The translations under genes and the position numbers were made by a program. The notes under the pieces are model-generated. The model saw nothing but the letters and a program-made list of their open reading frames with translations, searched no databases and was not told the origin of the DNA. Positions 1 through 22,718 of a stretch of DNA of 34,169 nt are shown here, piece after piece; within the stretch, counting starts at the first letter, position 1; each line of letters begins with the position of its first letter. The stretch covers positions 1 through 34,169 of IMG/VR virus record IMGVR_UViG_3300007540_000043; one strand, 5' to 3'. The stretch comes from a virus.

Positions 1-462
1 AATATAATCCCAAACAGCTTTCTCATCTTCTTTAGATACAGTTTGTCCACCAACTTGTGCTTTAGGTAATGCGCTACCACCACACTTATGGCATGTAGAT
101 ACATCATTACCACCATCTGCTGCTTTCCAAGACCAACCACAGCTATTACACTTCATTGTTTTAGTTAAAAGACCTCCTCCATATTTAGCCATTGGCACTT
201 CAAACACTTGATCACCGGGAAACTGATAATTATTACCTGGTGTCATTATTTGACTATTACCTAAATTATCTGTCCCCATAACAGGAAAATCTACATCTTC
301 CATTGTAATATTTCCAGATGGTATAATATTATATGGATTGTTTACATCAGGGCTATTTCTTTTATATCCATCAATACTAAACATACCAGATACATGTGTA
401 ATATATTCATTTGGCCCACCCGGTAAACCTAAACTTTGTTTATAACTAAATTTTTTTTTCAT
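1..462 (-). CDS. Zinc-ribbon virion-associated protein (N-terminal part)
   Basis: The gene starts at 462 and runs off the window at 1, so only about 154 residues are visible. Its ATG overlaps the TAA of the upstream muzzle gene (TAATG at 464-460), so it is probably translationally coupled to it. After a lysine-rich start come Pro/Gly/Asn-rich segments, including DVNNPYNIIPSGNITM and GNNYQFPGDQVFEVPM, followed by a CxxC...CxxC zinc ribbon (CNSCGW about 25 residues before CHKCGG). I recall this Pro/Gly-rich segment plus ribbon from large virion proteins of crAss-like and marine Bacteroidota phages, where it sits next to the tail nozzle. A packaged (cargo) or tail-associated protein is my inference; the function is not established from sequence. 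Confidence 0.75.
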   Translation of the reverse strand, partial: MKKKFSYKQSLGLPGGPNEYITHVSGMFSIDGYKRNSPDVNNPYNIIPSGNITMEDVDFPVMGTDNLGNSQIMTPGNNYQFPGDQVFEVPMAKYGGGLLTKTMKCNSCGWSWKAADGGNDVSTCHKCGGSALPKAQVGGQTVSKEDEKAVWDYI

Positions 463-3400
463 TATCTAAAGGACATGTTTAATTTTGTATTTGCTAATTT
501 AAGTAGCATTTTTCTATTTCCAGAGACATTTCTTCTTAAAATAACTTTGTTGTAATAATGTCTAAACTTTTTATGTTGTAAAGATTCTTTTTTATAGTTT
601 AAATTAAAAGCATTTAAATCTCTAATGTATCCATTAAGTTGTGTAATAAAAATACTTTGTTCAAAATTAGTAAATTCACCTCTATCTCTAGTTGTATCCC
701 AAAATTGATTAAATCTATATTTTTGTTCTTCTTTAGAATATAATATTCTAATGTCATTAGTTCCAATTATAGGATATTGCAACATACCATAAGGATCTTC
801 TTTAGGATTAAGTTCTAATTTTAATAAACCTGATACTTGTTCTGAATTATATATAATAGATTCATCAAAGTTAAAATCTAAATCATGCCATCTATCATCA
901 GCACAGCCATTATAAAGATCACCTTTATAAACATAAGATTCTAATTGATATTCAATACTTCTTAAAGTTGTAACATTTTGACCTGTATTTTCAATTAACT
1001 CAACTTCCCAAGGATAATCAATACCATAAAAATTAGCAAATGAATCACATCTAACATTATGTCTCCATATACGACTTTCTTCATTATTTGCTGGTGTAGA
1101 TAATAAACCAAAATATGAACACAATAATGGATTTGGATTTACATAAGATAAATCACCAACTAAATATAAATCATCACATTCACCTGACTCTGTAGTTACA
1201 GAACCAGAAAATTGAGCCGGTGGACAATTACATTCTATCTTTCTACAAATAGGAGGAAAATTAGAATCATAAGAACCTGTTTCTAAAGTATAATTACCAT
1301 TAACATCTGAATATATTAATTCATATCCATTAGGGCATGATAAACAAGCTTGTGCAGATACAGCATCTGCTACAGCAGTAATTGTATTTGGTTGATTTGC
1401 AGCTATACCAAATTCATAAGCTGAATTATTACAGCTTATATTTGATAATACTCCTTGGTCATATGGAACAGGGTTTGTTGCTCCTGCAAATAAAGCAATT
1501 ATATATTGATAGCTTATTGCACTACCACCTAACAAAGATGATTGATAAGGACAACCTACATTTGTTGAAGGAGCTGTTGAAGTATCTGTTACAAATAATA
1601 TATATTGTCTAAAGTTATTGTTACTTGTTCTATCACCTAACTGAGAAATTGTTTTATTATTTAATATTGTTTGAGCATGAATTAAAGCTGGTTCAATACT
1701 TGTTCCACCACCTAACCATGTAGATGTAAACCAAATATCTACTTCCGATGGTGTAATTGTATTACTCATACTAAAACCTAAAGGATTCATTGATAGTTGG
1801 GATGAACCCCACATTGTAAAACCAACTTGAATTTTACCTGCTGCCATTCCAGAAGCAATAGATGTGTTATTTAAAACACCTTGAACAAGAGCTCTTTCTG
1901 CTGCACCAATAGCACCAGCAGCACCTCCAGTACTACCTGAAACATCAACAGCAAAAATAATATCTATAAGACAGTTTGAATTATTATCAGTGCTTATTTC
2001 ATCAATTAAAACAGATGCTTTAGTTGTTTCTTGATATACTTTTTCACATTGATTTGTAAGAGAATTAAAGTTATAACCATCAGGGCAATAAAATGTATCA
2101 GATATAGTTGTTTGAGTTGTAAGAAAATGATTAATACTAGGTAATACTAACTCAGGAAACCAATCATGAAATGATATCCAAGCTTTAGATTTAGGATCGT
2201 ACGATACAGTCCAAGATGCGTTATTAAAATAAAGAGGATTTCCAATTTTTAAAGGTATAGGTCTAGAATTTGGTTTTGATCTTATTACAAATTCATCATT
2301 TTCAAAAGATATATTATTTAAAAATTCTTCTTTTACAGAATAATCTTTTTTCATAAAATAAACTACATCATCATTTGCATCATATATAGTTTGACATCCA
2401 ATACCTATTACAGGGTTATCAGCTAATTTACTAAATTCTAAATCACGATATTGTCTTATAAGAGTTGATGGTAAATATTTGTTAAACCAAGCTTTCATAC
2501 CGGAATTAGCAATATTTTCTAATTGACCTGTGTAATGAAATATTTTACCTTGAGCTTGAGATATATAAAACACACCCATTGGTGTACTTACAACAGAACG
2601 GGCGTTTTCAGATGAACCGTATTCATTTGAAAGATCTGAATTTACAATATTTTGAAATGGTTGACTAAATAAACCACCATCCCCAATAGTAAGCTTAGTG
2701 CCTAAATCTGTTTGTAGTTGATCAATTCCTTGAAACATTTGAGGAGATTGATATGGAAAAAATATAATTGCTCCGTTTTTATTTATAGGTTTGATTACAT
2801 TAACTCTATTTTTAAAATCTTTATAATTGTTAGGTAAAAATACTCTCCAAAAATCTTTCTTAGCTTCTCTTTGTGCTTGTAAAGAATAAATTAATCTTTT
2901 AGGATAATACTGGTAACAGTTTTCTGCAATTAAAGGATCATAATCTCTTTCTTGGACATTACCAAAAGAACTAACTTGAGTTATCATTTTATCAATGCTT
3001 AATGACAAATCATATTTATAAAAATTACCTTCTTTAATTATGTCTGCATGAAATAAATCATCAACGTTAGTGTACTGATAATTATCATAATGTCTACCTT
3101 TTGTTTCATCATCCCAATCTCTTTGTGCTAAATTATATTCAGATTCAACAAAGAAATCTTGTACGCCATTAACGTGAGTATACATATAGGCATATCTCAT
3201 TGCAAAAGCAGGATTAGGGTCACTGCTGTTAAACACGGCTCCCATACCTGATGCGCAACTATTAGAACCTCTATCTAAATAAAATAAATCATTTGGTAAA
3301 GCGTTTTTAGTATTTGCAAAACCCAAAGTTACAATTTCATCTGCTAATTGTGTTGTATCATATTTACGTGTATCCATCCAAAATCTTGGATAAGGTATAT

Positions 3401-6400
3401 TTATTCTTTGTAAATAATCATAAGAATATTGATTAGGTTGACCATTTAAAAAGTCAGCAAAAATTGGCATTATTGTTTTTTCAGTGTATCTATTAATATA
3501 AACATCACCAGCAAATATAGGTTTAGATTTAAATTTTTCTTGTGGTATTTTAATATCAACTAACTCTAAACAACCTCTCATTTGAATTTGTTTAACGCCA
3601 TCTAATTGACCGTATTGATTTTTAAAATTATATTTTAATGCCCCATATATTGCAGAAATAGATCTTGATTGTTCTTGTTCCGGATTTTTTATATAAGTAT
3701 TTCCATAATCATTAACCGTATCACCACCAATTGTATATCTTGATTTATCAACAACTAAAGGATTTTCTAATTCATTTTCAGTAGCAACTAAAACAGTCAT
3801 TGGTCTAAATAAATTATTTATTTTATAACCCTCAAATTCTTGAAATGAACTTCCTATGTAATTAGAATTTAAATTTTTAGTTCTAAATGTTAAATTACTA
3901 TTTCTAAGTGTAAAATTATTATAAAAACCATGTGAATTGTGTTTAAAAGCAAAATCTTCTTCACTAACAAGATTATAAAATAAATCTATTATTTCTTGAG
4001 CGCCTGTTGCAATATTTGTTTTTGCAATAACTAGTCCTAAAAAAGTACTTATAACTTTAGGTAATGCTCCAGAAGGATGTGTAACGTTATAAGTTTCATA
4101 ATACTTGCCGCTATTAATACCGGGTACTCCACTTGCAAGTAAGTTTGCTTCATTATTTATTCTAAGATTAAGTTGATTAGCTAATTTACCACCTGAGTAT
4201 AATGAAGCAAAAGAAGCTAAATCATCTAATAAAAGTTCAAAAATACCATATGTAATCAAAGAGGCTTCTATTGCAGCTGCAGCTGCAGTTACAGAAGATG
4301 CTAATTTCAGACCTGGAATTGAAAAAGATGTACCTCCAACAGCTATGTTTGGATCTGTATGTTGAGATAATCCTTCAAGACCATAAGATTGATTACCTTT
4401 AACTCTACTAATAGCATATCCAACACCAAATAATCCAGCAATTAAAGCACCTCCGTTTCTTAATAATTTATTTTGAGGATGATTTTCTGATTTAATAAAA
4501 TGACCTATAGCACTACCGTCAAGATCTCCGTAAACTCTTGTTTCATAAGCATTTAAAAAAGGTCTTCTAAACATTAACTCTGGAGAATGAAATGTAAAAT
4601 AATCTTTTTTATACCCCGTTAATGGTTTAAATGAAACTTTAGATTGAGTAAATGTATCACAACCATCTGTTCTATGATCACTGTTTTGTTTACCGTCATG
4701 AAAATAAACGTCAGGTCTTAAATCATTATAAGGATAGTTAGGATATAAACCTTTACTATTACCTAAAGTTTGGCCACCTTCAGGTATATTATATTCACGC
4801 ATATTTTTAAATATACCTTTTGCAAGAATAGATTTATGACCTTCTCTTGAACCTCTTAATATTTCATAACCAACAATGTTAGTTATAATGTTTCCATTAT
4901 TATCTAAAGGTGGAGATATATTTTCAAATTCAACACCTAATACTCTTATTGTTGTTCCATTTGTAGAAGATATTTGTAATTGAGATCCTATTTCTTCAGT
5001 AGGCATTTTATGATGTCTAATATTTTTACCGCATAAATTGTCCCATATATCAGGTCTAGTTGCTGGATATTTTTCAGTAGACTCCCAATAAGCCATATCA
5101 CCCTTAGCTATTATAATACCGTTATCTTCTGTTGGTATAGATAAATTACTATTTGTAACAGTTGCTGTATTATAAATTTCAAAATTCATTTCATCATTAG
5201 CTAAAGAATTTAATCCGCCACTAATAGCAATTTCATTTATTACTTGACCAAATTGATTTAATCCATTGGTTTTAGGTGCTCTACCTGGAATATGATATGA
5301 ACTAGATCTTTCACCTGTATTATAAATCCATCTAATAAAAAAAGCATACTGCTCATCTCTCATAAATCCTGTTTTATTACCTCCTTTATAATAATAAGAA
5401 GCAGGATACTCGGCAACAACCCATTTAGCTTTAATTTGATTTGCTAATGGTTGATAATTAAAATCAAATTGTTCTACAGGACCTTGTCTTATTAACCAAT
5501 CATTTACAACATACATTGTATCTGATTTTTCATAAGCAGGTGATCTTAAAGGAATTATTTCTAATGGTATACTAATTAATGATTGATCTATATAATCAAT
5601 TTCAATATCCATTTGTTCTGTGCTATATAATCCTATTTTTTTAGCTACAGTATTTTGTTGATTATTAGAAAGAATTACAAGTTCATAATAATCAAATTGC
5701 TTATCTAAATTTGATATTGTAATACGTAAAGAACCTGAAGTTCCTGAATGATCAAATAAAGATTGAACATTTGATACACCAATGTAATCTGTAACTTTTT
5801 GATTATTTACAGTATAAGCAACAAAAACTTGATATGATCCGTTTCTTAATTGACCACCACTTTCACCTTTATTTAATTTAATACACGGCGTATCAACCAA
5901 TGGGGCCAATCTTATTTTTTCACAATCTAATTCATTTGTATTTTCATAAATAAGACAATCAGCTCCAGGTTTTGAAGTTATTATTTGTTTCCATGGTATA
6001 TCATTTAAATTAAGAGTTCTTGATGGATTATTACCATCATCCCAATATGTTTGCCAAGAGCAATCAAAATTTTCTTTTGCTGCTCCAACAATTAAATGTT
6101 TTTTATTAAAGTTTAAACAAGGATCATTAACAAGAGTTGTATACTCACATTTACTATCATCAAATAATCCTATCTCAGAGTTTATATCATCTGTAGAATA
6201 TAAGACCCATTGATCAGAATAAGTATGTATAGCACCTATAATTGTATAAGGCACTTTAGCACATTCTAAATTTGAAGGTTCATTTCCTATAAGACCAGTA
6301 TCACCATCTACAGAATTATTTGCAGCATTACGAGCATGAGACCAAGCTTCTTTTGGTTGATAAGAAGATGACATATCTTTCATCATACCTTTAATAAAAA

Positions 6401-6455
6401 TTCTAGAGTCTATACTTGATGTATTTTGCACAGATGGTTCATTTTGTTTTGCCAT
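462..6455 (-). CDS. Giant tail nozzle (muzzle/stump) protein with inserted VWA domain
   Basis: This 1997-aa protein is the largest in the window. Its opening (IFIKGMMKDMSSSYQPKEAW, then ARNAANN...GNEPSN and GIIGxx-like strands) matches the pattern of crAss-like muzzle/stabilisation proteins, which form the distal tail tube and relate to T7 gp12/P22 gp10 nozzles. It follows two ring-type genes, as expected for a tail protein. Around residues 660-740 there are Gly/Ala-rich hydrophobic stretches (GGALIAGLFGVGYAI; VTAAAAAIEASLITYGIF) that could be internal helices or membrane-active. At about residues 1490-1700 lies a von Willebrand factor A domain with a complete-looking MIDAS: DVSGS, the Thr of GGGTS, and the Asp of VTDTS. 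The domain is flanked by two similar Cys modules (CPDGYNF...C before, CPNGYEL...C after), which suggests insertion into a Cys-rich loop. The tail role is confident; the VWA role in host adhesion is inference. Confidence 0.85.
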   Translation of the reverse strand: MAKQNEPSVQNTSSIDSRIFIKGMMKDMSSSYQPKEAWSHARNAANNSVDGDTGLIGNEPSNLECAKVPYTIIGAIHTYSDQWVLYSTDDINSEIGLFDDSKCEYTTLVNDPCLNFNKKHLIVGAAKENFDCSWQTYWDDGNNPSRTLNLNDIPWKQIITSKPGADCLIYENTNELDCEKIRLAPLVDTPCIKLNKGESGGQLRNGSYQVFVAYTVNNQKVTDYIGVSNVQSLFDHSGTSGSLRITISNLDKQFDYYELVILSNNQQNTVAKKIGLYSTEQMDIEIDYIDQSLISIPLEIIPLRSPAYEKSDTMYVVNDWLIRQGPVEQFDFNYQPLANQIKAKWVVAEYPASYYYKGGNKTGFMRDEQYAFFIRWIYNTGERSSSYHIPGRAPKTNGLNQFGQVINEIAISGGLNSLANDEMNFEIYNTATVTNSNLSIPTEDNGIIIAKGDMAYWESTEKYPATRPDIWDNLCGKNIRHHKMPTEEIGSQLQISSTNGTTIRVLGVEFENISPPLDNNGNIITNIVGYEILRGSREGHKSILAKGIFKNMREYNIPEGGQTLGNSKGLYPNYPYNDLRPDVYFHDGKQNSDHRTDGCDTFTQSKVSFKPLTGYKKDYFTFHSPELMFRRPFLNAYETRVYGDLDGSAIGHFIKSENHPQNKLLRNGGALIAGLFGVGYAISRVKGNQSYGLEGLSQHTDPNIAVGGTSFSIPGLKLASSVTAAAAAIEASLITYGIFELLLDDLASFASLYSGGKLANQLNLRINNEANLLASGVPGINSGKYYETYNVTHPSGALPKVISTFLGLVIAKTNIATGAQEIIDLFYNLVSEEDFAFKHNSHGFYNNFTLRNSNLTFRTKNLNSNYIGSSFQEFEGYKINNLFRPMTVLVATENELENPLVVDKSRYTIGGDTVNDYGNTYIKNPEQEQSRSISAIYGALKYNFKNQYGQLDGVKQIQMRGCLELVDIKIPQEKFKSKPIFAGDVYINRYTEKTIMPIFADFLNGQPNQYSYDYLQRINIPYPRFWMDTRKYDTTQLADEIVTLGFANTKNALPNDLFYLDRGSNSCASGMGAVFNSSDPNPAFAMRYAYMYTHVNGVQDFFVESEYNLAQRDWDDETKGRHYDNYQYTNVDDLFHADIIKEGNFYKYDLSLSIDKMITQVSSFGNVQERDYDPLIAENCYQYYPKRLIYSLQAQREAKKDFWRVFLPNNYKDFKNRVNVIKPINKNGAIIFFPYQSPQMFQGIDQLQTDLGTKLTIGDGGLFSQPFQNIVNSDLSNEYGSSENARSVVSTPMGVFYISQAQGKIFHYTGQLENIANSGMKAWFNKYLPSTLIRQYRDLEFSKLADNPVIGIGCQTIYDANDDVVYFMKKDYSVKEEFLNNISFENDEFVIRSKPNSRPIPLKIGNPLYFNNASWTVSYDPKSKAWISFHDWFPELVLPSINHFLTTQTTISDTFYCPDGYNFNSLTNQCEKVYQETTKASVLIDEISTDNNSNCLIDIIFAVDVSGSTGGAAGAIGAAERALVQGVLNNTSIASGMAAGKIQVGFTMWGSSQLSMNPLGFSMSNTITPSEVDIWFTSTWLGGGTSIEPALIHAQTILNNKTISQLGDRTSNNNFRQYILFVTDTSTAPSTNVGCPYQSSLLGGSAISYQYIIALFAGATNPVPYDQGVLSNISCNNSAYEFGIAANQPNTITAVADAVSAQACLSCPNGYELIYSDVNGNYTLETGSYDSNFPPICRKIECNCPPAQFSGSVTTESGECDDLYLVGDLSYVNPNPLLCSYFGLLSTPANNEESRIWRHNVRCDSFANFYGIDYPWEVELIENTGQNVTTLRSIEYQLESYVYKGDLYNGCADDRWHDLDFNFDESIIYNSEQVSGLLKLELNPKEDPYGMLQYPIIGTNDIRILYSKEEQKYRFNQFWDTTRDRGEFTNFEQSIFITQLNGYIRDLNAFNLNYKKESLQHKKFRHYYNKVILRRNVSGNRKMLLKLANTKLNMSFR

Positions 6456-6459
6456 GATA

Positions 6460-7338
6460 TTATCTTATTGTAGGTGTGCTTTTAAACATGTTATAATAAT
6501 TGTGGTATTGAGCTTTTCTATTTACTTCCCACATTTTTTTTAATTCAGCAAAGTCAGGTGTATTAATAAAACTTAATGCATTATTTCTAGAAGCTCTAAG
6601 TCTTTGTTCTATTAGTCCCATTTGGTTACTTACATTCTCACCAGCAAACATCATATTTTCAAGTATTCTTTGCTTTAAAGCATACTCATAATATTCATTA
6701 CAATAAGGATGATCTAATACAAGAAGATTACCTTCATTATCTTCCATTGCTCCTTGAAAATTTAAATATACTTTTCCTGAAGTAAAATTAGTTTTTATAA
6801 AACCGTCTTTAATTTCAGCAAGATTTTGAGATCTTGTATTTATATTTGGACAATCACATGTTGCATCATTAATAGTTGTTATCGTTAAAGGTTCAAATGT
6901 ACTATAAGATCTGTATTGACTAGTTCCAACTTTTTGAACAAGTTTATATTCCGAATCACCGCAAGCTGTTAAAACACAAACATCATTACATTTAGAATCT
7001 TCACATGGTCCGGTCATACCCGGATCAGGAACATAATTAACATCTACAGTTTCAACATGTGTACCGGAAGGCATTTTTGTTTCAATAGTATATTCGTTAC
7101 AAATAAAAGCATAATTTAAATAAGCAAAATCATGGGGTAGTCTAGCTTTATTATGCTCAATATCTAAAACAACTTGTTTAGTTCTATTAATTTTTAAACC
7201 TAAATCATAATTTACTCTTGTTGCAACTTTAATAAGTTGTCCAGGTTCTATCATACCCTCAAGAGCATAGCTAGAAAAATCAATCGTTACATCATTTAAT
7301 AATTGATTAAAAGTTCTATATTTATGTGATACGCTCAT
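6460..7338 (-). CDS. Ring/adaptor-type tail connector protein (292 aa)
   Basis: Opening with MSVSHKYRTFNQLLNDV, the protein has a basic-hydrophobic N-terminal half, a Cys-rich middle (CEDSKCNDVCVLTACG, then CDCP), and a helical C-terminus containing YYEYALKQRILENMMFAGE. This architecture, and its place directly upstream of the muzzle gene (four bases apart), resembles crAss-like ring proteins that connect portal and muzzle. Its ATG overlaps the stop of the preceding ring-type gene (TAATG at 7340-7336), so the two are probably made in fixed ratio. The Cys cluster could bind metal or form disulfides in the mature tail. The connector class is likely, but which ring it forms cannot be told from sequence alone. 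Confidence 0.7.
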   Translation of the reverse strand: MSVSHKYRTFNQLLNDVTIDFSSYALEGMIEPGQLIKVATRVNYDLGLKINRTKQVVLDIEHNKARLPHDFAYLNYAFICNEYTIETKMPSGTHVETVDVNYVPDPGMTGPCEDSKCNDVCVLTACGDSEYKLVQKVGTSQYRSYSTFEPLTITTINDATCDCPNINTRSQNLAEIKDGFIKTNFTSGKVYLNFQGAMEDNEGNLLVLDHPYCNEYYEYALKQRILENMMFAGENVSNQMGLIEQRLRASRNNALSFINTPDFAELKKMWEVNRKAQYHNYYNMFKSTPTIR

Positions 7339-8006
7339 TATCTATGTAAATTAATTTTGTTATCTGAATCTTCAGCCGGTATACTTAAAGTGTTAGTCAT
7401 AACAAGCATAACTTGTTGTTCTATTTCAGCAAATAATGCTTCAGGTATATTTATTTTTTGTAAGTATCTTGGTATACATTCATCTTTTTCAGAAGTCCAT
7501 TTTGAAATATCACCATTAAATACACCTTCTAATTTAATTGCATCCCATTCTATATTAGGAAAATAAAGATAACCATTAAGATACCAAAAATATTTTGTTT
7601 TGTTATATCTAAAAGATGTAGTATTACTCATAGAAGTATAAGTGCCAGGATGCGTAGGTTGTAATTCTGTAGATCCATCTATAGAACTTACTGTCCTGAT
7701 TAATGGACCCCAATAACCTTCAATCATGTGAGGTAGTTTATCTTTAGTTCTTTTTATTATACAACCGCTTTTTATTCCAGTACAAGTAGCTTCTACTTTA
7801 TCTACTTCTATTAATTCAATAAACGGTAAAGTTTGCCAAACTGAATTAAATTTCATTAATTTGTTAGCGTTGTCTTGCCTTCTCATTAATAATTGAGAAA
7901 ACTTTTGTATCAAACTATATACATATCTGTCTGTTACAAAAGCATCTTGTACTTCAGCTTTTACTTGACCTCTTATTCTTGATATAACTTCTCCTATTGT
8001 TGTCAT
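7338..8006 (-). CDS. Ring/adaptor-type tail connector protein (222 aa)
   Basis: The N-terminal half is helical (GEVISRIRGQVKAEVQDAFV, DRYVYSLIQKFSQLLMRRQD), followed by a beta-rich middle and a C-terminal helix (IPEALFAEIEQQVMLVMTNT). This helix-beta-helix layout and size fit the P22 gp4-like/crAss ring proteins that dock under the portal. It is translationally coupled to the 292-aa connector downstream and shares a unit with the muzzle. It shows no Walker, protease or nuclease motifs. I favour a head-tail connector ring; confidence rests on layout and context rather than a signature motif. Confidence 0.7.
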   Translation of the reverse strand: MTTIGEVISRIRGQVKAEVQDAFVTDRYVYSLIQKFSQLLMRRQDNANKLMKFNSVWQTLPFIELIEVDKVEATCTGIKSGCIIKRTKDKLPHMIEGYWGPLIRTVSSIDGSTELQPTHPGTYTSMSNTTSFRYNKTKYFWYLNGYLYFPNIEWDAIKLEGVFNGDISKWTSEKDECIPRYLQKINIPEALFAEIEQQVMLVMTNTLSIPAEDSDNKINLHR

Positions 8007-10575: not shown

Positions 10576-12222
10576 TTAATTTGCAGGACAAGGACCACCC
10601 GTTAAACTAAAAGTTTCAGTACTACTAATAATTGATCGACCACATATTGTTGTACTACAAATTGGAGATGAACATGTCTCTGTTCTATTTTGCTGAATTC
10701 CATTACAATCAATATAACTGTATGTAATACTAGTATCATAAGGAGCAGATTGCCATTCAAGACATTGAAAATTAGTTGTTGTAAATAAAACATCTGAACA
10801 AACAGATTCTTTACCGTTTATTTGTGTTGTTACTCTAATAGCATAATCAGTTAGATCTATAAGACCAGTAAATATTTCCGATATATTTGTTCCAGGTGCT
10901 GTAACATTTCTTGTTGCAGTTACAGCATTTGTAGCAACATTTATTAATTTAATTATATAAGATGCTGTATTACCAAGATTATTATTAAAAGTTACAGTTA
11001 CACCATCAGGTTCAATATTAGTAGCTGCAATATTGCTTGGACATGGTACGGTTAAATTTATAGTTTTATTAATTGTTTCTTTACATTCATTTACACCGTC
11101 AGTTAAACAAAAAGCAATACTAACATTTAAATTATCAAAAACATTTAAATTAGTTAAAGGTACATTAACAGAAGTTGCTGTACCAGCTACAGCATTAAAA
11201 TTAAATACACTTGAAGAAGTTAATCCATTTACATCTGTTACTATAGCATTTGTACTACCTCCGCAATCTGTATATCCCGAAGAAGTAATCGCTGTATTAA
11301 AATTTAATGCAACATTAGTTGGTATTTCCAAATTATCTTTAACAACAGATGCTGTATAGTTATACACTATTGAATCACAAGCTCCAGGACAACAATTTAA
11401 TTTAATATCTTGAATAGCTTGATACATATCGCATACAACAAGCCATAAATTTTTATTTGATTCAGCTAATGTATTAGTATTTGTAACCCAACCAGGTATG
11501 GAAGAATAAGTTGAATTGCCATTTAACATATTATCACTTCCTAAAATACACTGTGCGTTTATAGCTGTTGTTATAAGTGAAGGTGATCCTACAGCAGATT
11601 CTAAATTACAATGTACTCTTTCAATCTCTAATAATAATGTAGAAGCATTAATTAATGTACCTCCAGGTATTAAACAAGAAGATAAAACTTGAGCTTCATT
11701 AACGTTATTAGCAGAACATGGTAATACGCAATTTTCTAATACAATAAGTCTAGCTTCATGATCATCTAGTGTAGTTTGAATTAAAGTAATTGTGCTTAAT
11801 ATGTTGCATATTTTATTACCTAGTAATATAGAAAATTCTTCAATAGGTAATACAGTTACTAAATTACCAAGATTATCATTATATTTAAGACATTCAGCTA
11901 ATGTTATATTAATAGGATCCGCTGCTGCTGTTTGTGTTATGTTACATACGTAATCAATTATAAGTTGTAATATTTCTTCTAATGTGCTAGGTTCAGTTTG
12001 ACCATCTGGTAATACACAAAATAAATCCAAACCTGTAAGATTTGGTTCAGTTGCAGTACTATTTATTATTAAACAAAGCTCTTCTGCAAGTTTAGCAATA
12101 ACATCGCTTATTGTGTCACCGTTACATAGATTTATACAAGGAATATCAGGACCTTGCCAAACAACACAATTTGAAGATATATTTGAGCATGGATTTATGC
12201 TTCCTGTATTTGTTGGTATCAT
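10576..12222 (-). CDS. Cys-rich repeat fibre protein with FN3-like domain (548 aa)
   Basis: Short helical modules ending in a Cys recur through the N-terminal half (CINLCNGDTISDVIAKLAEE, LEEILQLIIDYVCNI, FSILLGNKICNI, LLLEIERVHCNLES, LWLVVCDMYQAIQDI). These look like repeated oligomerising segments, as in trimeric fibres. Residues 395-480 form a fibronectin III-like domain (IEPDGVTVTFNNNLGNTASY, TGLIDLTDYAIRVTTQ). The C-terminus is again Cys-rich (CSSPICSTTICG). It leads the unit with the 186-aa protein, with a promoter-like motif 46 bases upstream of the ATG. There is no signal peptide, so it is likely a virion protein rather than a secreted one. The receptor-binding role is inferred from context and domain type. 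Confidence 0.7.
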   Translation of the reverse strand: MIPTNTGSINPCSNISSNCVVWQGPDIPCINLCNGDTISDVIAKLAEELCLIINSTATEPNLTGLDLFCVLPDGQTEPSTLEEILQLIIDYVCNITQTAAADPINITLAECLKYNDNLGNLVTVLPIEEFSILLGNKICNILSTITLIQTTLDDHEARLIVLENCVLPCSANNVNEAQVLSSCLIPGGTLINASTLLLEIERVHCNLESAVGSPSLITTAINAQCILGSDNMLNGNSTYSSIPGWVTNTNTLAESNKNLWLVVCDMYQAIQDIKLNCCPGACDSIVYNYTASVVKDNLEIPTNVALNFNTAITSSGYTDCGGSTNAIVTDVNGLTSSSVFNFNAVAGTATSVNVPLTNLNVFDNLNVSIAFCLTDGVNECKETINKTINLTVPCPSNIAATNIEPDGVTVTFNNNLGNTASYIIKLINVATNAVTATRNVTAPGTNISEIFTGLIDLTDYAIRVTTQINGKESVCSDVLFTTTNFQCLEWQSAPYDTSITYSYIDCNGIQQNRTETCSSPICSTTICGRSIISSTETFSLTGGPCPAN

Positions 12223-12267
12223 AAATATTTTATTTTACAACTAATTGATTCTATTAGTATATACTAT

Positions 12268-12278
12268 AATATACAAAA
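12268..12278 (-). promoter_or_regulatory. Candidate late promoter element (fibre unit)
   Basis: The minus strand reads TTTTGTATATT followed by ATAGTATATACTAATAG, in a gap of about 100 bases that holds no gene. It lies 46 bases before the ATG at 12222 and matches the copies at 17092, 18419, 20745 and 24095. Confidence 0.5.
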
Positions 12279-12325
12279 GTTTTTATAATCAAACAAGTAG
12301 TTTAATTAAATTATTACTATTAAGC

Positions 12326-12665: not shown

Positions 12666-15600
12666 TTAAAAAACAGCATTTGTAACTAACGTTCCATTAT
12701 CTGCAACTGTAATTCTGTGTCGTGTTCCATTTGGAGATTTAATTATAATACCACTTGCAATATCTTCAATCTCTACATCTTTTTTAACATTTACTCCACC
12801 GCTATTAGAAAATATAATTTTTTTACCACCTCCTGGAACATCACTAAAAACTAAATCGTTAGTAGCGTTTAGTCTAACAGTAACCTCAGGAGTTTGACTA
12901 CTCCCTAAAGAGCCAAAAAAAACACTATCTCTCGCAAATATGCCCCCTTGAACATCTAAAGTCGCGCCTGGATTAGTTGTTCCTATACCCACTCTTCCGT
13001 TTTTATTTAATGACATTATATTACCTACACCACCAGACGAATTACCCATAAAAAAGTCAAGTCTGTCCGAGTCATTTCTAATAATGGAATGTGTTACATA
13101 TCCTTCAAGTATAACGCCTTTAACACCTGCAATATATGCGCCAAAAGATAAAGTTGAAAAACATTTTAAATGATTTACTTGAGAAATGCCATCTAAATCT
13201 ATATAATATACTACAGACGCTCCCGTTTTGTAATATCTATTAGCTGATATGTTTACTGGAAACGTTAAATCGCTTGTGTTTTCCCATCTGCTATTTGCTT
13301 CGTTGTACATTAATATTTGACTATTGACAGGATTGTCAATATTTACATCGTGTAGTTCCCCTAACTCATATCCATTATCCACTTTAACAAATATCTTACC
13401 ATTATTTTGGTGAGCATATTCTACAAACCCCACAATAATAAGATGGTTTGGTGAAATTGGTTTAACGTTTGTTAGAACCCCTGGAGTCACTGCTGACAAA
13501 TAAAGTACGTCACCATCGCTCCATGTTTCTCCTTGCAATGAACCAGTTGTATTTACTTTATTAATAGTTCCTTGAGTTGTTATAAAGCCTTCTTGATTGT
13601 TATTTATATCCTCAGTGACTAAACCTATTGTAGTTGCTGAATTAGCATCAGAATTAGCTTGAGCTAAATCTACTTGTAATCTTTGACCTTGAGCACCTAC
13701 AACTTTAACTGCTCTATATTGAGATTCTAATAAATTAGAGTTTGTTCCGTTTACAACTCTTATGACTTGCTCTTGTCCTATTTGTAATGTTACATTACCT
13801 CCTTTTAACCCTAAGTCTAAAGTACCGTCAGTATCATTCCATCTAACAACACCTACACCTTCTAATCCTAAAGGTAATTGATCTAAAACACCATTTCCTG
13901 TTGATTTTATTTTTAATCCATCATGTAAAATTAAAGGCTTTTTAATACCCAAGTGATGTTCATCTAAAGTAGGTTGTGTTTGTATAGGATCTATTACAGG
14001 TTCTACAGCATACATTATATTACCATAGTTATCATTTAAATAAAGATTTCTACCTTGATTGTAAAAACCTCTATTATTAAAAGCATCGTAATAATTATTT
14101 AAACCACCGTTTGTAGTGTATAAATGAACCTTACCTGGCGTAATTGTAGGAAATGATGTAGCTACATTTTTATGAGATGTAATTATTATTCTATTTGCTC
14201 TTTCATCAAGAGCAACGTATCTACCAAATCTATGAAAGTATTCAGGATCTTCATTTCCAAATTGAATTTTAATATCAAATTCATTAGTAGTTTCGTTATA
14301 GTCAAATAAATAAACTTGACCAGTAGATTCTCCTCTTGTTTTATTATTCCCTTCGTATAATCCAGTTGGGTCTGAAATGGAAGTTCCATCAAAAAGTCTT
14401 ATGTAAGCATCTAAACCATCTCCTTCTTCCCAAGTCCAAGAACCTATTCCTAATGTTTTTCCATCATTTGAAATTCCCATACCTGAAGCAAACCAATCAT
14501 TAAAGCTTCTATCAGGTGCTGTTATAGTTTGTTTGTATTTAAAATTAGTACCGTCATGTTGATAATAAAATGCAGCACCAAGTTGAGTTTTTTTCATGTT
14601 TAAATAAAACTCTTCAGGCGTTGGTTGAGATAAATTTGCAGGAATAGTTCCTTCTCCGTAACCAGACATCCCAATAATAATTTTAGTACCATCTCCACTT
14701 ATTGAAACTGAAGCACCAAATCTAGGTTGCATAGATGCAAAATTAGACAAAATACCATTTGGTAAAGCATATTGCTGATCTTCTAGTGGAAAATTAGTTG
14801 TACTATTTTTAAAATAATCTGATTCAGCTTGACCCAGACCTCCAAGCCAATACTGTTTAGTAGTATGATAAACAATGTTATCCATAATATCAGGTGGACA
14901 TAAAAACGTTTGTTCTCTACTCCAACCTCCTAGGTTTTTTACAAAGTAATGAGCTGTGCCTGCCTCAGCATAATCTCTTACAAAATAAGAAATATTATTA
15001 GTTGAGTAATCACGATAATACTCTCCAACTACAAGTTTTGTTCCTGAGTCATCTAAGTCTACTCCAATACCAAATCTACTTTCAGTTTGAGGTCCTTCTA
15101 CATTTCCGTACCCTGGTGACAGTAAAACATCTCTATAATCCCAAGAATTAGTTGTATTATTCCAATCATAAGTAAATACGGCGCCTGCTTGCGTAATAAT
15201 ATCAGTAGTGTTTAATACCGTATAATTTGCATAATCGGCTCCTACAACCATTATTGTACCATCTCCATTTAAAGCACAACTTATACCATAATAAGATTCA
15301 TTACTAACACTAGGTTCTGGATATGTCCTACACACAAAAATCCAAGTAGATCCATTCCAAGCATACGTTGTTACGCTTCCTCTATCTGCAGTATCTTCAG
15401 GATCTGTATTTCCAAATATATTACCTACAATTAATTTAGAACCGTCAGAACTAATAGCTGCTGATGAGCCAAATCCCATTCCATTTGAATCAAACCCTAA
15501 TTCATTTGAAGGTCCTCCAACTATAGAACTTATATGCTGCGGAATATTATTTTTTTGAATTTCAGCATCAATTTTAATTTCTAAAAAATTTATAAATTCA

Positions 15601-15809
15601 TCTGACTGTTCTTTTGTATAACTTGATATCCACTTCGAACCTTGCCAAATTTCTATTACTTTTAATGTTTCATTATACATTATTTGACCTTCTATAGGTT
15701 CAGAAGGTCTATTTTCAGTTGTTAAAGGTTGTATTATCGCATTAGATAATACATTTTGCAGCATATTAATATTTAAAGTTTTTATGTCAGAAAGATAAGT
15801 AAGCGCCAT
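12666..15809 (-). CDS. Tail fibre with FG-GAP beta-propeller repeats (1047 aa)
   Basis: After an N-terminal attachment segment (residues 1-100) with the ubiquitous phage pattern GQIMYNETLKVIEIWQGSKW, six FG-GAP-like blades can be read: FGSSAAISSDGSKLIVG (about 113), YGISCALNGDGTIMVVG (180), FGIGVDLDDSGTKLVVG (252), FGASVSISGDGTKIIIG (372), a degenerate FASGMGISNDGKTLGIG (443), and FGRYVALDERANRIIIT (533). FG-GAP propellers, as in integrin alpha chains, bind calcium and partner proteins. From about residue 640 the protein changes to common tail-fibre modules: GDVLYLSAVTPGVLTNV near 768, GELHDVNID near 816, and GRVGIGTTNPGATLDVQG near 941. There is no S74 peptidase motif at the C-terminus. The coding DNA of the C-terminal part seems richer in G+C than the propeller part, suggesting mosaic assembly. 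Receptor binding is the probable role. Confidence 0.8.
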   Translation of the reverse strand: MALTYLSDIKTLNINMLQNVLSNAIIQPLTTENRPSEPIEGQIMYNETLKVIEIWQGSKWISSYTKEQSDEFINFLEIKIDAEIQKNNIPQHISSIVGGPSNELGFDSNGMGFGSSAAISSDGSKLIVGNIFGNTDPEDTADRGSVTTYAWNGSTWIFVCRTYPEPSVSNESYYGISCALNGDGTIMVVGADYANYTVLNTTDIITQAGAVFTYDWNNTTNSWDYRDVLLSPGYGNVEGPQTESRFGIGVDLDDSGTKLVVGEYYRDYSTNNISYFVRDYAEAGTAHYFVKNLGGWSREQTFLCPPDIMDNIVYHTTKQYWLGGLGQAESDYFKNSTTNFPLEDQQYALPNGILSNFASMQPRFGASVSISGDGTKIIIGMSGYGEGTIPANLSQPTPEEFYLNMKKTQLGAAFYYQHDGTNFKYKQTITAPDRSFNDWFASGMGISNDGKTLGIGSWTWEEGDGLDAYIRLFDGTSISDPTGLYEGNNKTRGESTGQVYLFDYNETTNEFDIKIQFGNEDPEYFHRFGRYVALDERANRIIITSHKNVATSFPTITPGKVHLYTTNGGLNNYYDAFNNRGFYNQGRNLYLNDNYGNIMYAVEPVIDPIQTQPTLDEHHLGIKKPLILHDGLKIKSTGNGVLDQLPLGLEGVGVVRWNDTDGTLDLGLKGGNVTLQIGQEQVIRVVNGTNSNLLESQYRAVKVVGAQGQRLQVDLAQANSDANSATTIGLVTEDINNNQEGFITTQGTINKVNTTGSLQGETWSDGDVLYLSAVTPGVLTNVKPISPNHLIIVGFVEYAHQNNGKIFVKVDNGYELGELHDVNIDNPVNSQILMYNEANSRWENTSDLTFPVNISANRYYKTGASVVYYIDLDGISQVNHLKCFSTLSFGAYIAGVKGVILEGYVTHSIIRNDSDRLDFFMGNSSGGVGNIMSLNKNGRVGIGTTNPGATLDVQGGIFARDSVFFGSLGSSQTPEVTVRLNATNDLVFSDVPGGGKKIIFSNSGGVNVKKDVEIEDIASGIIIKSPNGTRHRITVADNGTLVTNAVF

Positions 15810-21098: not shown

Positions 21099-22718
21099 CT
21101 AGAATGATCCGCCGGTAATTGGGTTTCTCATAACTATTTTAAGAACTTTAGTTGGATCTTTAACCCAGATAGCAGGCATTGTTTGTGACATCATTACTCT
21201 GTATCCATTAAAGTTACCAGATGAAGCGAACCCTTGAGTACGTCCCATATAATCCATGGTACCATTTTGATAGAACCATTTTAATTGGTTATCCCAAGAC
21301 AATTTCAATAAGTGAATGTTATCATTACCACCGTCAGTGATATCAAAGATAATAAAGCTGTAAGAACTTAATGGACGTCCGTCAATTAATGGATTCTCAA
21401 CATCATTAGTATGTAAGTTATCAAAAGCAGGATTCAATACAAACTTAACATTAGCTAAGAAAGGAATAGTAAAGCTTGTGTAAGCAAAACCATAATCTAA
21501 ATCCATACCTTTACCTTTAACAGCACCAATGTCAGAAGCATTCTGAACTAAACCAGAACCATATACTTCATCAGCAATAGCTTTATTAATTAATTGCATA
21601 CCACCAATACCAGTTTGTACAACTAATTGACGTTGTGGATCCGGTCCTTTGAATTCAACTTTACCTTGGTAGAAGTTATATAATTCAGATTTAAACATAT
21701 CTAAAGTAAATGAAGACTTGTTATATACCCTTTTAAAAGAGTTATCTAACTGTGACCATAAACCTACTGATAATCTAATATCATCTGGACCATCTTGTTT
21801 TACTCTACCACCTTTACCCCACATAAGGTAAGTTTCAATATCATTTGCAATTTTAGATAAGTGAGCTGCTTCAAGATTAGTAACAAAAGTTCTTGATAAT
21901 TTACCACTTTCAAATGCATCACGCGCTCCAGATTTACCCATTCCAGCAACTAATTCTTCAATAGAAGATACAGAAGGATTAGCAGCGTTTTGATCAAAGT
22001 TTCTCCAGATTTCAGTTACAGGAACTGTACCATCTGCATTTAAACCACCTTTGATCATTAAATCAGCACGACTAGATATTGAATAATGTACATGTGCTTC
22101 AGCTCCTCCTACAAAGTTGTAAAATTCACGGAAACCAGAACCAGTTTCAATATCAGAAAATCTTTCTCCGTATTCTCCACGGGCAGAACCTTTTCTAAAG
22201 AATTTAGTTCCTGATGTTAAATAAGCGCTATCTAATGTAGAAGCACTATTGTTATTTACTAACTGCACAGTATAGATAAAACCATCACCAGCAGGGATAA
22301 TATCATCAGCTGTAATGTAAAGTTCTAAACCATTGTACTTGTCATAAGTAATAATATCACCATGTCCAAAAGCTCTTTTAGAAAGCTTAATTTTGAATGT
22401 AGTTCCATCAATACCTTTTTCACTGTTTGCAGGCTCAATGTCTGCTACTACGAAAGGTAAATCTTGCGCAATTGGTGTTTGCCATTTGTACTCACCACGA
22501 GCGTTGTCTACCATAATTGTGTTCTTTCCACCAAAAGAAGCCATTTGATAAAGGGGCATTTCAACTTTTTGAGTCATTGCCCACAAATCAACAGGTCCCA
22601 TATCCATAGGCTCAGCAGAACCAAGCATTTGGGTAAGGTGATAAGAATCAACGTGAGAACTTGCTTTATAAGAAGTATCTCTAAGGAAAATTCCATTATT
22701 TAATACAGGAGTTGCCAT
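21099..22718 (-). CDS. Major capsid protein (539 aa)
   Basis: Length, position three genes after the terminase, and an even mix of strands and helices fit an HK97-fold capsid protein of crAss-like phages. It begins MATPVLNNGIFLRDTSYKAS, includes FGGKNTIMVDNARGEYKWQT, then a region with SGFREFYNFVGGAEAHVHYS, and ends DPTKVLKIVMRNPITGG. Coding DNA is noticeably richer in G+C than most neighbours (25 of 60 bases in one hand-counted line, against 16 of 60 in a muzzle line), as expected for an optimised, highly expressed gene. It lies 40 bases after the acidic 431-aa gene, and is followed by a strong terminator. Confidence 0.85.
   Translation of the reverse strand: MATPVLNNGIFLRDTSYKASSHVDSYHLTQMLGSAEPMDMGPVDLWAMTQKVEMPLYQMASFGGKNTIMVDNARGEYKWQTPIAQDLPFVVADIEPANSEKGIDGTTFKIKLSKRAFGHGDIITYDKYNGLELYITADDIIPAGDGFIYTVQLVNNNSASTLDSAYLTSGTKFFRKGSARGEYGERFSDIETGSGFREFYNFVGGAEAHVHYSISSRADLMIKGGLNADGTVPVTEIWRNFDQNAANPSVSSIEELVAGMGKSGARDAFESGKLSRTFVTNLEAAHLSKIANDIETYLMWGKGGRVKQDGPDDIRLSVGLWSQLDNSFKRVYNKSSFTLDMFKSELYNFYQGKVEFKGPDPQRQLVVQTGIGGMQLINKAIADEVYGSGLVQNASDIGAVKGKGMDLDYGFAYTSFTIPFLANVKFVLNPAFDNLHTNDVENPLIDGRPLSSYSFIIFDITDGGNDNIHLLKLSWDNQLKWFYQNGTMDYMGRTQGFASSGNFNGYRVMMSQTMPAIWVKDPTKVLKIVMRNPITGGSF

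Follow-up and report, generated by a model that had tools for sequence, protein, structure and literature searches.

The window, a stretch of 34,169 nt of viral DNA (IMG/VR record IMGVR_UViG_3300007540_000043), is the structural region of a crAss-like phage. Its genes for the capsid, Ring1, Ring2 and the muzzle are all on the minus strand: Crass_capsid at positions 21099-22718 (Pfam, E=1.2e-31), Ring2 at 7338-8006 and Ring1 at 6460-7338 (both by Pfam), with the muzzle gene beside them at 462..6455. The preliminary description had taken the 1997-aa product of this last gene for a crAss-like muzzle, and profile searches bear this out: the protein matches the family profile (Pfam PF25731, crAss_MUZ, E=4.7e-23; PHROG 37948, E=8.8e-42), Ring1 and Ring2 adjoin its gene, and a crass capsid is encoded in the same genome. 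An identical muzzle is encoded by IMG/VR 3300025543_000016, locus L001 in our numbering of the relatives. The gene after the muzzle in L001 (12994-18486) encodes 1831 aa and, by reading, is of a cargo type with LysM- and amidase-like stretches; the relatives of its product have the N-terminus in common and are divergent beyond it. Another minus-strand gene of the window, at 12666-15809, encodes 1047 aa with FG-GAP_2 repeats (Pfam, E=1.3e-10); this repeat type is that of integrin alpha propellers, and here it occurs in a phage that also has a VWA-bearing muzzle.

Within the muzzle lies a von Willebrand A (VWA) domain with a complete set of metal ion-dependent adhesion site (MIDAS) residues. The domain covers residues 1495-1704 (1344..1973, minus strand), as delimited by the family alignment, Pfam searches with family members, profile matches in the PDB, an AlphaFold (AF2) model and Foldseek. 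It is closed by a near-invariant pair, Cys1495 and Cys1704, kept in 71/74 and 68/74, respectively, of the relatives that carry the domain at the same site. The three MIDAS motifs are where the preliminary description had placed them, all on the minus strand: DVSGS at residues 1504-1508 (1932..1946), GGGTS at residues 1582-1586 (1698-1712) with Thr1585 at 1701..1703, and VTDTS at residues 1622-1626 (1578-1592) with Asp1624 at 1584..1586. Each metal-ligand position is kept in 70 to 74 of the 74 relatives: D1504 and S1506 in 72 each, S1508 in all 74, T1585 in 70 and D1624 in 71. In an alignment of 51 relatives the MIDAS D, S, S and T are invariant and the last Asp is kept in at least 90%. The main-site inserts of L051 and L075 contain a VWA-like domain in which the first motif is replaced (QADDST type); metal binding of the usual kind is improbable for these two.

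A profile search against VWA families, as had been suggested, succeeded for family members and not for the window copy alone. Pfam searches with 51 members gave matches to VWA for 12 and to VWA_2 for 18 (best E=2.9e-8), and a family profile run against the PDB matched only the I domains of integrin alpha-1 and alpha-2 (best E=0.0036). The window VWA sequence by itself had no Pfam match at 0.01, and nothing in PHROGs, NCBIfam or PDB sequences. Since the window copy alone passes no sequence threshold, the VWA assignment rests on the family and the fold. The AF2 model spans muzzle residues 1130-1997, and the VWA part (model residues 367-575) is an alternating beta/alpha, Rossmann-like structure with strands and helices in the order of a VWA domain (pLDDT ~85-91), as the preliminary description expected; the model is not a reliable guide to how the domain is oriented on the scaffold (pTM 0.45). 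The top PDB matches of the predicted fold in Foldseek were VWA domains, namely TRAP, CMG2 (TMt 0.69-0.73), integrin alpha-I, collagen VI and tip pilins. Together, the family and fold data confirm the segment as a VWA domain, and the predicted MIDAS would be expected to bind metal. All 71 loci found in viral contigs with the VWA profile (71/71) were muzzles. A tblastn search of 50,697 phage records with the L013 VWA found nothing, so this VWA is absent from deposited phage records at the sensitivity of that search.

The VWA domain is part of a larger inserted cassette of 345 aa, residues 1450-1794 (1074..2108, minus strand), at what we call the main hairpin; its limits come from insert extraction with flank HMMs and from alignment with outgroups. 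Profiles of both flanks, run on all fetched loci (109 different muzzle ORFs), gave inserts of 2-10 aa in 17/109 ORFs, 39 aa in one, 130-143 aa in eight and at least 343 aa in the rest, proportions that overestimate the frequency of the cassette, as VWA-bearing or cassette sequences served as the queries for fetching the loci. Outgroup alignment places a short turn of ~10 residues or fewer at this hairpin in crAss001, csAssE-Sib, phi4:1, Fpv1 and Lbo-JY46. Because all five of these named crAss-like phages have the short turn only, the insert-free form is probably ancestral. The segment is thus not universal among muzzles, and its presence or absence at one and the same hairpin agrees with the earlier proposal that the VWA was inserted into a pre-existing loop.

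Two Cys modules were also described as flanking the VWA, which they do, as if it had been inserted into a pre-existing loop; the modules themselves are not part of that loop. The N-terminal module CPDGYNFNSLTNQC occupies residues 1457-1470 (2046..2087, minus strand) and opens with CPDGY at residue 1457 (2073-2087). The C-terminal modules, CPNGY...C...CNCPP...C...C, occupy residues 1707-1779 (1119..1337, minus strand), with CPNGY beginning at residue 1707 (1323-1337). Both are retained in L073, L020, L029 and L059, which have no VWA, and L056, L050 and L055 have neither modules nor VWA at the main hairpin; the modules therefore belong to the cassette and not to the ancestral loop. Comparison of L021 with L073 reveals a near-clean excision of the VWA. 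A relationship of the modules to complement receptor 1 (weak phmmer match, E=0.27) was rejected, as was one to CBM14 or EGF (Pfam matches); all of these look like matches of cysteine spacing. The existence of phages with an empty site indicates that the VWA is dispensable, and hence that other receptor-binding proteins must exist.

The main hairpin also accepts other cargo. Seven muzzles have a different domain, a beta-sandwich predicted at pLDDT 88.7, in place of the VWA, and L051 apparently has both at the main site. Fold matches of the beta-sandwich are weak; they include carbohydrate-binding modules and lectins, and many, such as haemagglutinin, are spurious, so that a putative identity as a carbohydrate-binding module serves only as a lead. 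In L167 (7626-13904) and L169 (7638-13868) the beta-sandwich is near the muzzle N-terminus and the main site is empty. The beta-sandwich and CPxGY modules also occur in non-muzzle ORFs (L161:7656-11006 and L163:7686-10658), so that modules may be common to the muzzle and other proteins. The muzzle of L218 (2589-9821) has, by eye, tandem cadherin-like or Ig-like repeats after CPxGY modules, which may be a third type of module subject to exchange.

A second insertion site is found in the preceding hairpin, which in the window is a plain loop (residues ~1373-1402; 2250..2339, minus strand). VWA matches fall at this position in L084, L093, L198, L148, L151, L152, L153 and L222. L084 and L093 have just a two-residue turn at the main hairpin and carry their VWA in the second hairpin (scaffold 1379 to ~1384-1395), with 49% and 41% identity, respectively, to the window VWA. 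L198 has another VWA in the second hairpin, accompanied by CPxGY modules, and L148, L151, L152 and L153 have VWA matches at both hairpins. By path length, the VWA of L084 is nearest to those of L009 and the window, on a branch that is not well supported, and its scaffold is only ~40% identical to the window scaffold. No second-site domain has starred support in the VWA tree, which came from a quick search.

Where on the muzzle do these sites lie? According to the crAss001 structure paper, the crAss001 muzzle gp44 consists of a ring-joining domain, a seven-bladed propeller, IG1 (163-292) and IG2 (318-1021), with the crass fold inside IG2 (PMC10172136). In a multi-outgroup alignment, the insertion point corresponds to gp44 residue ~1231, C-terminal of IG1, IG2 and the crass fold. 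This alignment is the basis for placing the site; an hhalign comparison of the C-terminal profile with gp44 was weak (probability 21%, E 0.001). Because the insertion point is C-terminal of all gp44 inserts, the main site would be a hairpin of the late part of the seven-bladed propeller, judging from homology and a reading of the strands. With strands read by eye, each site appears to be a turn that joins strands two and three of its blade, the two blades being consecutive. From its size and site, the VWA would be exposed on the outside of the muzzle. The preliminary description put it at the tip of the nozzle, a position that homology does not establish. We considered that both hairpins might be distal since IG1 hangs below the propeller, and dropped this idea as the planes of nozzle propellers stand radially in T7 (PMC6702177). 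In SU10, blades 4-6 line the channel (PMC9509320). With propellers arranged as in these two nozzles, lateral or upper-outer display of the VWA is as likely as display at the tip.

It is clear that the VWA is exchanged between muzzles. A tree of 104 scaffolds, built by a quick search after removal of the main-site cassette, requires nine changes of the VWA label, at least seven of which are forced by well-supported branches. The VWA of the window is closest to that of L009, and the scaffold of the window is closer to those of L044 and L038. L005 and L007 have flanks that are 98-99% identical and VWA domains that are 43% identical. At the DNA level the edges are sharp: identity is 99% up to 11549, 39-62% over 11550-12292 and 96-100% thereafter. 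Synonymous divergence (dS) for this pair is 0.06 and 0.04 in the flanks and 0.92 in the VWA. Since VWA dS is far above flank dS, the domain has been replaced by import. A domain exchange with sharp DNA edges is also found between L147 and L221, and L016 and L017 resemble L005 and L007 in having nearly identical muzzle flanks and different VWA domains. VWA exchange includes indels and whole-domain replacement. A diversity-generating retroelement makes neither of these.

The VWA also evolves rapidly in place. Among 74 relatives (2701 pairs), median pairwise identity is 63% upstream of the domain, 35% within it and 66% downstream, and in 98% of pairs it is the VWA that has the lowest identity of these segments. 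In other close pairs (L043/L052, L011/L022 and L008/L054), dS in the VWA is similar to that in the flanks and dN is raised. Values of dN/dS for the VWA and the upstream segment are ~0.67 and 0.07 for L043/L052, 0.8 and 0.17 for L011/L022, and 0.4 and 0.08 for L015/L026. Across nine close pairs, differences occur at 109/710 positions (15.4%) in loops of the MIDAS face and 33/478 positions (6.9%) in loops of the opposite face (p=6.9e-6), and at 6.2% of positions in helices and strands; the loop regions were set from the predicted fold ahead of counting, and their assignment to top or bottom relies on that fold and on a reading of VWA topology. A conserved metal centre with fast-changing loops around it is the pattern to be expected of a binding surface whose ligands change. 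Alternatively, the fast evolution of the VWA could be due to escape from host defence or to relaxed constraint.

We propose that the cassette is an exchangeable, metal-dependent surface-binding adhesion module by which the muzzle grips the host surface, and assign this reading a probability of roughly 0.7. Cys-rich linker modules would present a VWA with a complete MIDAS, plugged into a C-terminal propeller hairpin, in six copies per virion if the muzzle is a hexamer like that of crAss001. The VWA would use Mg2+ or Mn2+, together with the surrounding variable loops, to hold a host-surface ligand that is either acidic or a glycan. Specificity could then be altered by point changes on the metal face, by recombination of the VWA, by substitution of the beta-sandwich, or by loss. 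Phages so equipped would adhere to the host envelope not only through their tail fibres but also at the muzzle or close to it. Receptor binding by the VWA is plausible from its sequence, and a component of the host surface is the ligand we would expect.

An alternative function for the cassette is as a sensor that controls the channel: ligand binding would shift the conformation of the VWA, move the blade hairpin and cause the muzzle to open. Integrin alpha-I domains change conformation on ligand binding, and the muzzle, like integrin alpha, would have a VWA in a beta-propeller. Moreover, the channel gate is in blade 4 of the same propeller according to the crAss001 paper (PMC10172136), and opening of the T7 gate requires displacement of whole propellers (PMC6702177). 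However, muzzles with an empty site must open without a cassette. We consider control of opening unlikely, and it is in any case compatible with adhesion rather than exclusive of it. Rather less likely still is that the VWA is a dock for a phage tail fibre or tailspike near the propeller, and co-varies with this partner. Fibres of T7 and SU10 dock at the propeller end or blade 1 (PMC6702177, PMC9509320), next to the blade in which we place the insertion, and the tail genes around the muzzle are also mosaic; in L005 and L007 the next gene diverges after its N-terminus. That gene reads as cargo-type, with its LysM- and amidase-like stretches, and not as a fibre, and sister phages dispense with the whole cassette. 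Furthermore, in crAss001 it is hubs attached to rings R1 and R2, rather than the muzzle, that carry the fibres (PMC10172136).

The many losses on the tree, the elevated dN and the loss of MIDAS residues in L051 and L075 would also fit a tolerated insertion that drifts under weak constraint and has no binding function. Nevertheless, we regard neutral decoration as very improbable, because drift would neither spare the metal ligands, which are kept in 70-74/74 relatives while the adjoining loops vary most, nor focus changes on one face. A co-chaperone-type role in tail assembly, as for MoxR/AAA+ systems, is suggested by the VWA-MIDAS proteins of ATV, haloviruses and some jumbo phages that pair with AAA+ ATPases (PMC7911831, PMC7824862), and can be virtually dismissed for a domain inserted within a structural protein, given that sister muzzles lacking the insert presumably assemble and that a Pfam scan of 15 window ORFs gave no AAA+ match.

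In integrin alpha chains with an alpha-I domain, a MIDAS-bearing VWA is in a loop of a seven-bladed propeller, as it would be in the muzzle, and alpha-I domains are among our profile and Foldseek matches. The alpha-I domain sits between propeller blades 2 and 3, and the chain pairs with a beta subunit. In contrast, the window VWA is near the C-terminus, after IG2 and crass, in what is probably a late-blade hairpin; it has Cys linkers, which integrin alpha lacks; there is no counterpart of the beta subunit; and the propeller is of another family, that of the nozzle, with a match to crAss_MUZ and not to integrin. The likeness is best seen as an analogy between independently assembled proteins, and not as whole-protein homology. 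It is a doubtful extension that the muzzle is an independently reached counterpart of integrin alpha, in which a VWA on a seven-bladed propeller acts as a metal-dependent receptor sensor under conformational control, which on binding its ligand shifts the propeller blade and helps to open the gate, and in which adjacent blades offer, in their hairpins, general docking sites for interchangeable adhesion domains.

VWA domains with a MIDAS on extended surface structures are also found in the tip pilins RrgA, SpaC and GBS104, in Plasmodium TRAP and in CMG2; these adhesins and receptors are cell-borne, and identity in the Foldseek alignments is only ~10-18%. Extracellular contractile injection systems (eCIS) are phage-tail-derived particles with horizontally acquired binding domains that include VWA (PMC12923769); there the VWA is carried by fibre proteins, whereas in the window it is carried by the nozzle scaffold. 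Haloviruses, ATV and jumbo phages also encode VWA-MIDAS proteins (PMC7911831, PMC7824862), but these are separate genes paired with AAA+ and proposed to be chaperones or adaptors, and not part of a muzzle. A further comparison is with crAss001 gp44, which is of the same protein family and has no insert at the main hairpin. The crAss001 paper reports that muzzle length varies through insertions able to alter surface properties, and puts this variation in the crass and IG2 regions (PMC10172136); the window cassette is C-terminal of both. As to contact with the cell, the paper offers only the suggestion that it is made by exposed loops of the muzzle, and its available part contains no mention of VWA (PMC10172136). 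In the open-access papers searched we found no publication that pairs crAss-like phages with von Willebrand domains, which is not proof of absence. Muzzle insertions in general (PMC10172136), VWA in eCIS fibres (PMC12923769) and separate viral VWA proteins were already known; the combination of a VWA with a muzzle, and the behaviour of the putative propeller hairpins as swap sites, appear to be new.

The window cassette represents a defined, natural, swappable module in a nozzle scaffold, with a candidate metal site, and probably offers a phage counterpart of the VWA-on-propeller layout of integrins. The L005/L007 and L016/L017 pairs are natural material for asking whether nozzle inserts set host range. 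All of the domain-bearing relatives that we found are metagenomic contigs. Three loci from bacterial genomes are in metagenome bins of Pseudomonadales and Campylobacteraceae, and are probably misbinned phage contigs. A muzzle-related ORF on a 245 kb contig (L070:6962-19042) encodes 4027 aa, about twice the usual size, and has VWA-like motifs. Lastly, locus L079, the Leptolyngbya phage Lbo-JY46 (PP438436), has a crAss-type muzzle that is annotated as hypothetical; the record of this phage gives a cyanobacterium as the source.
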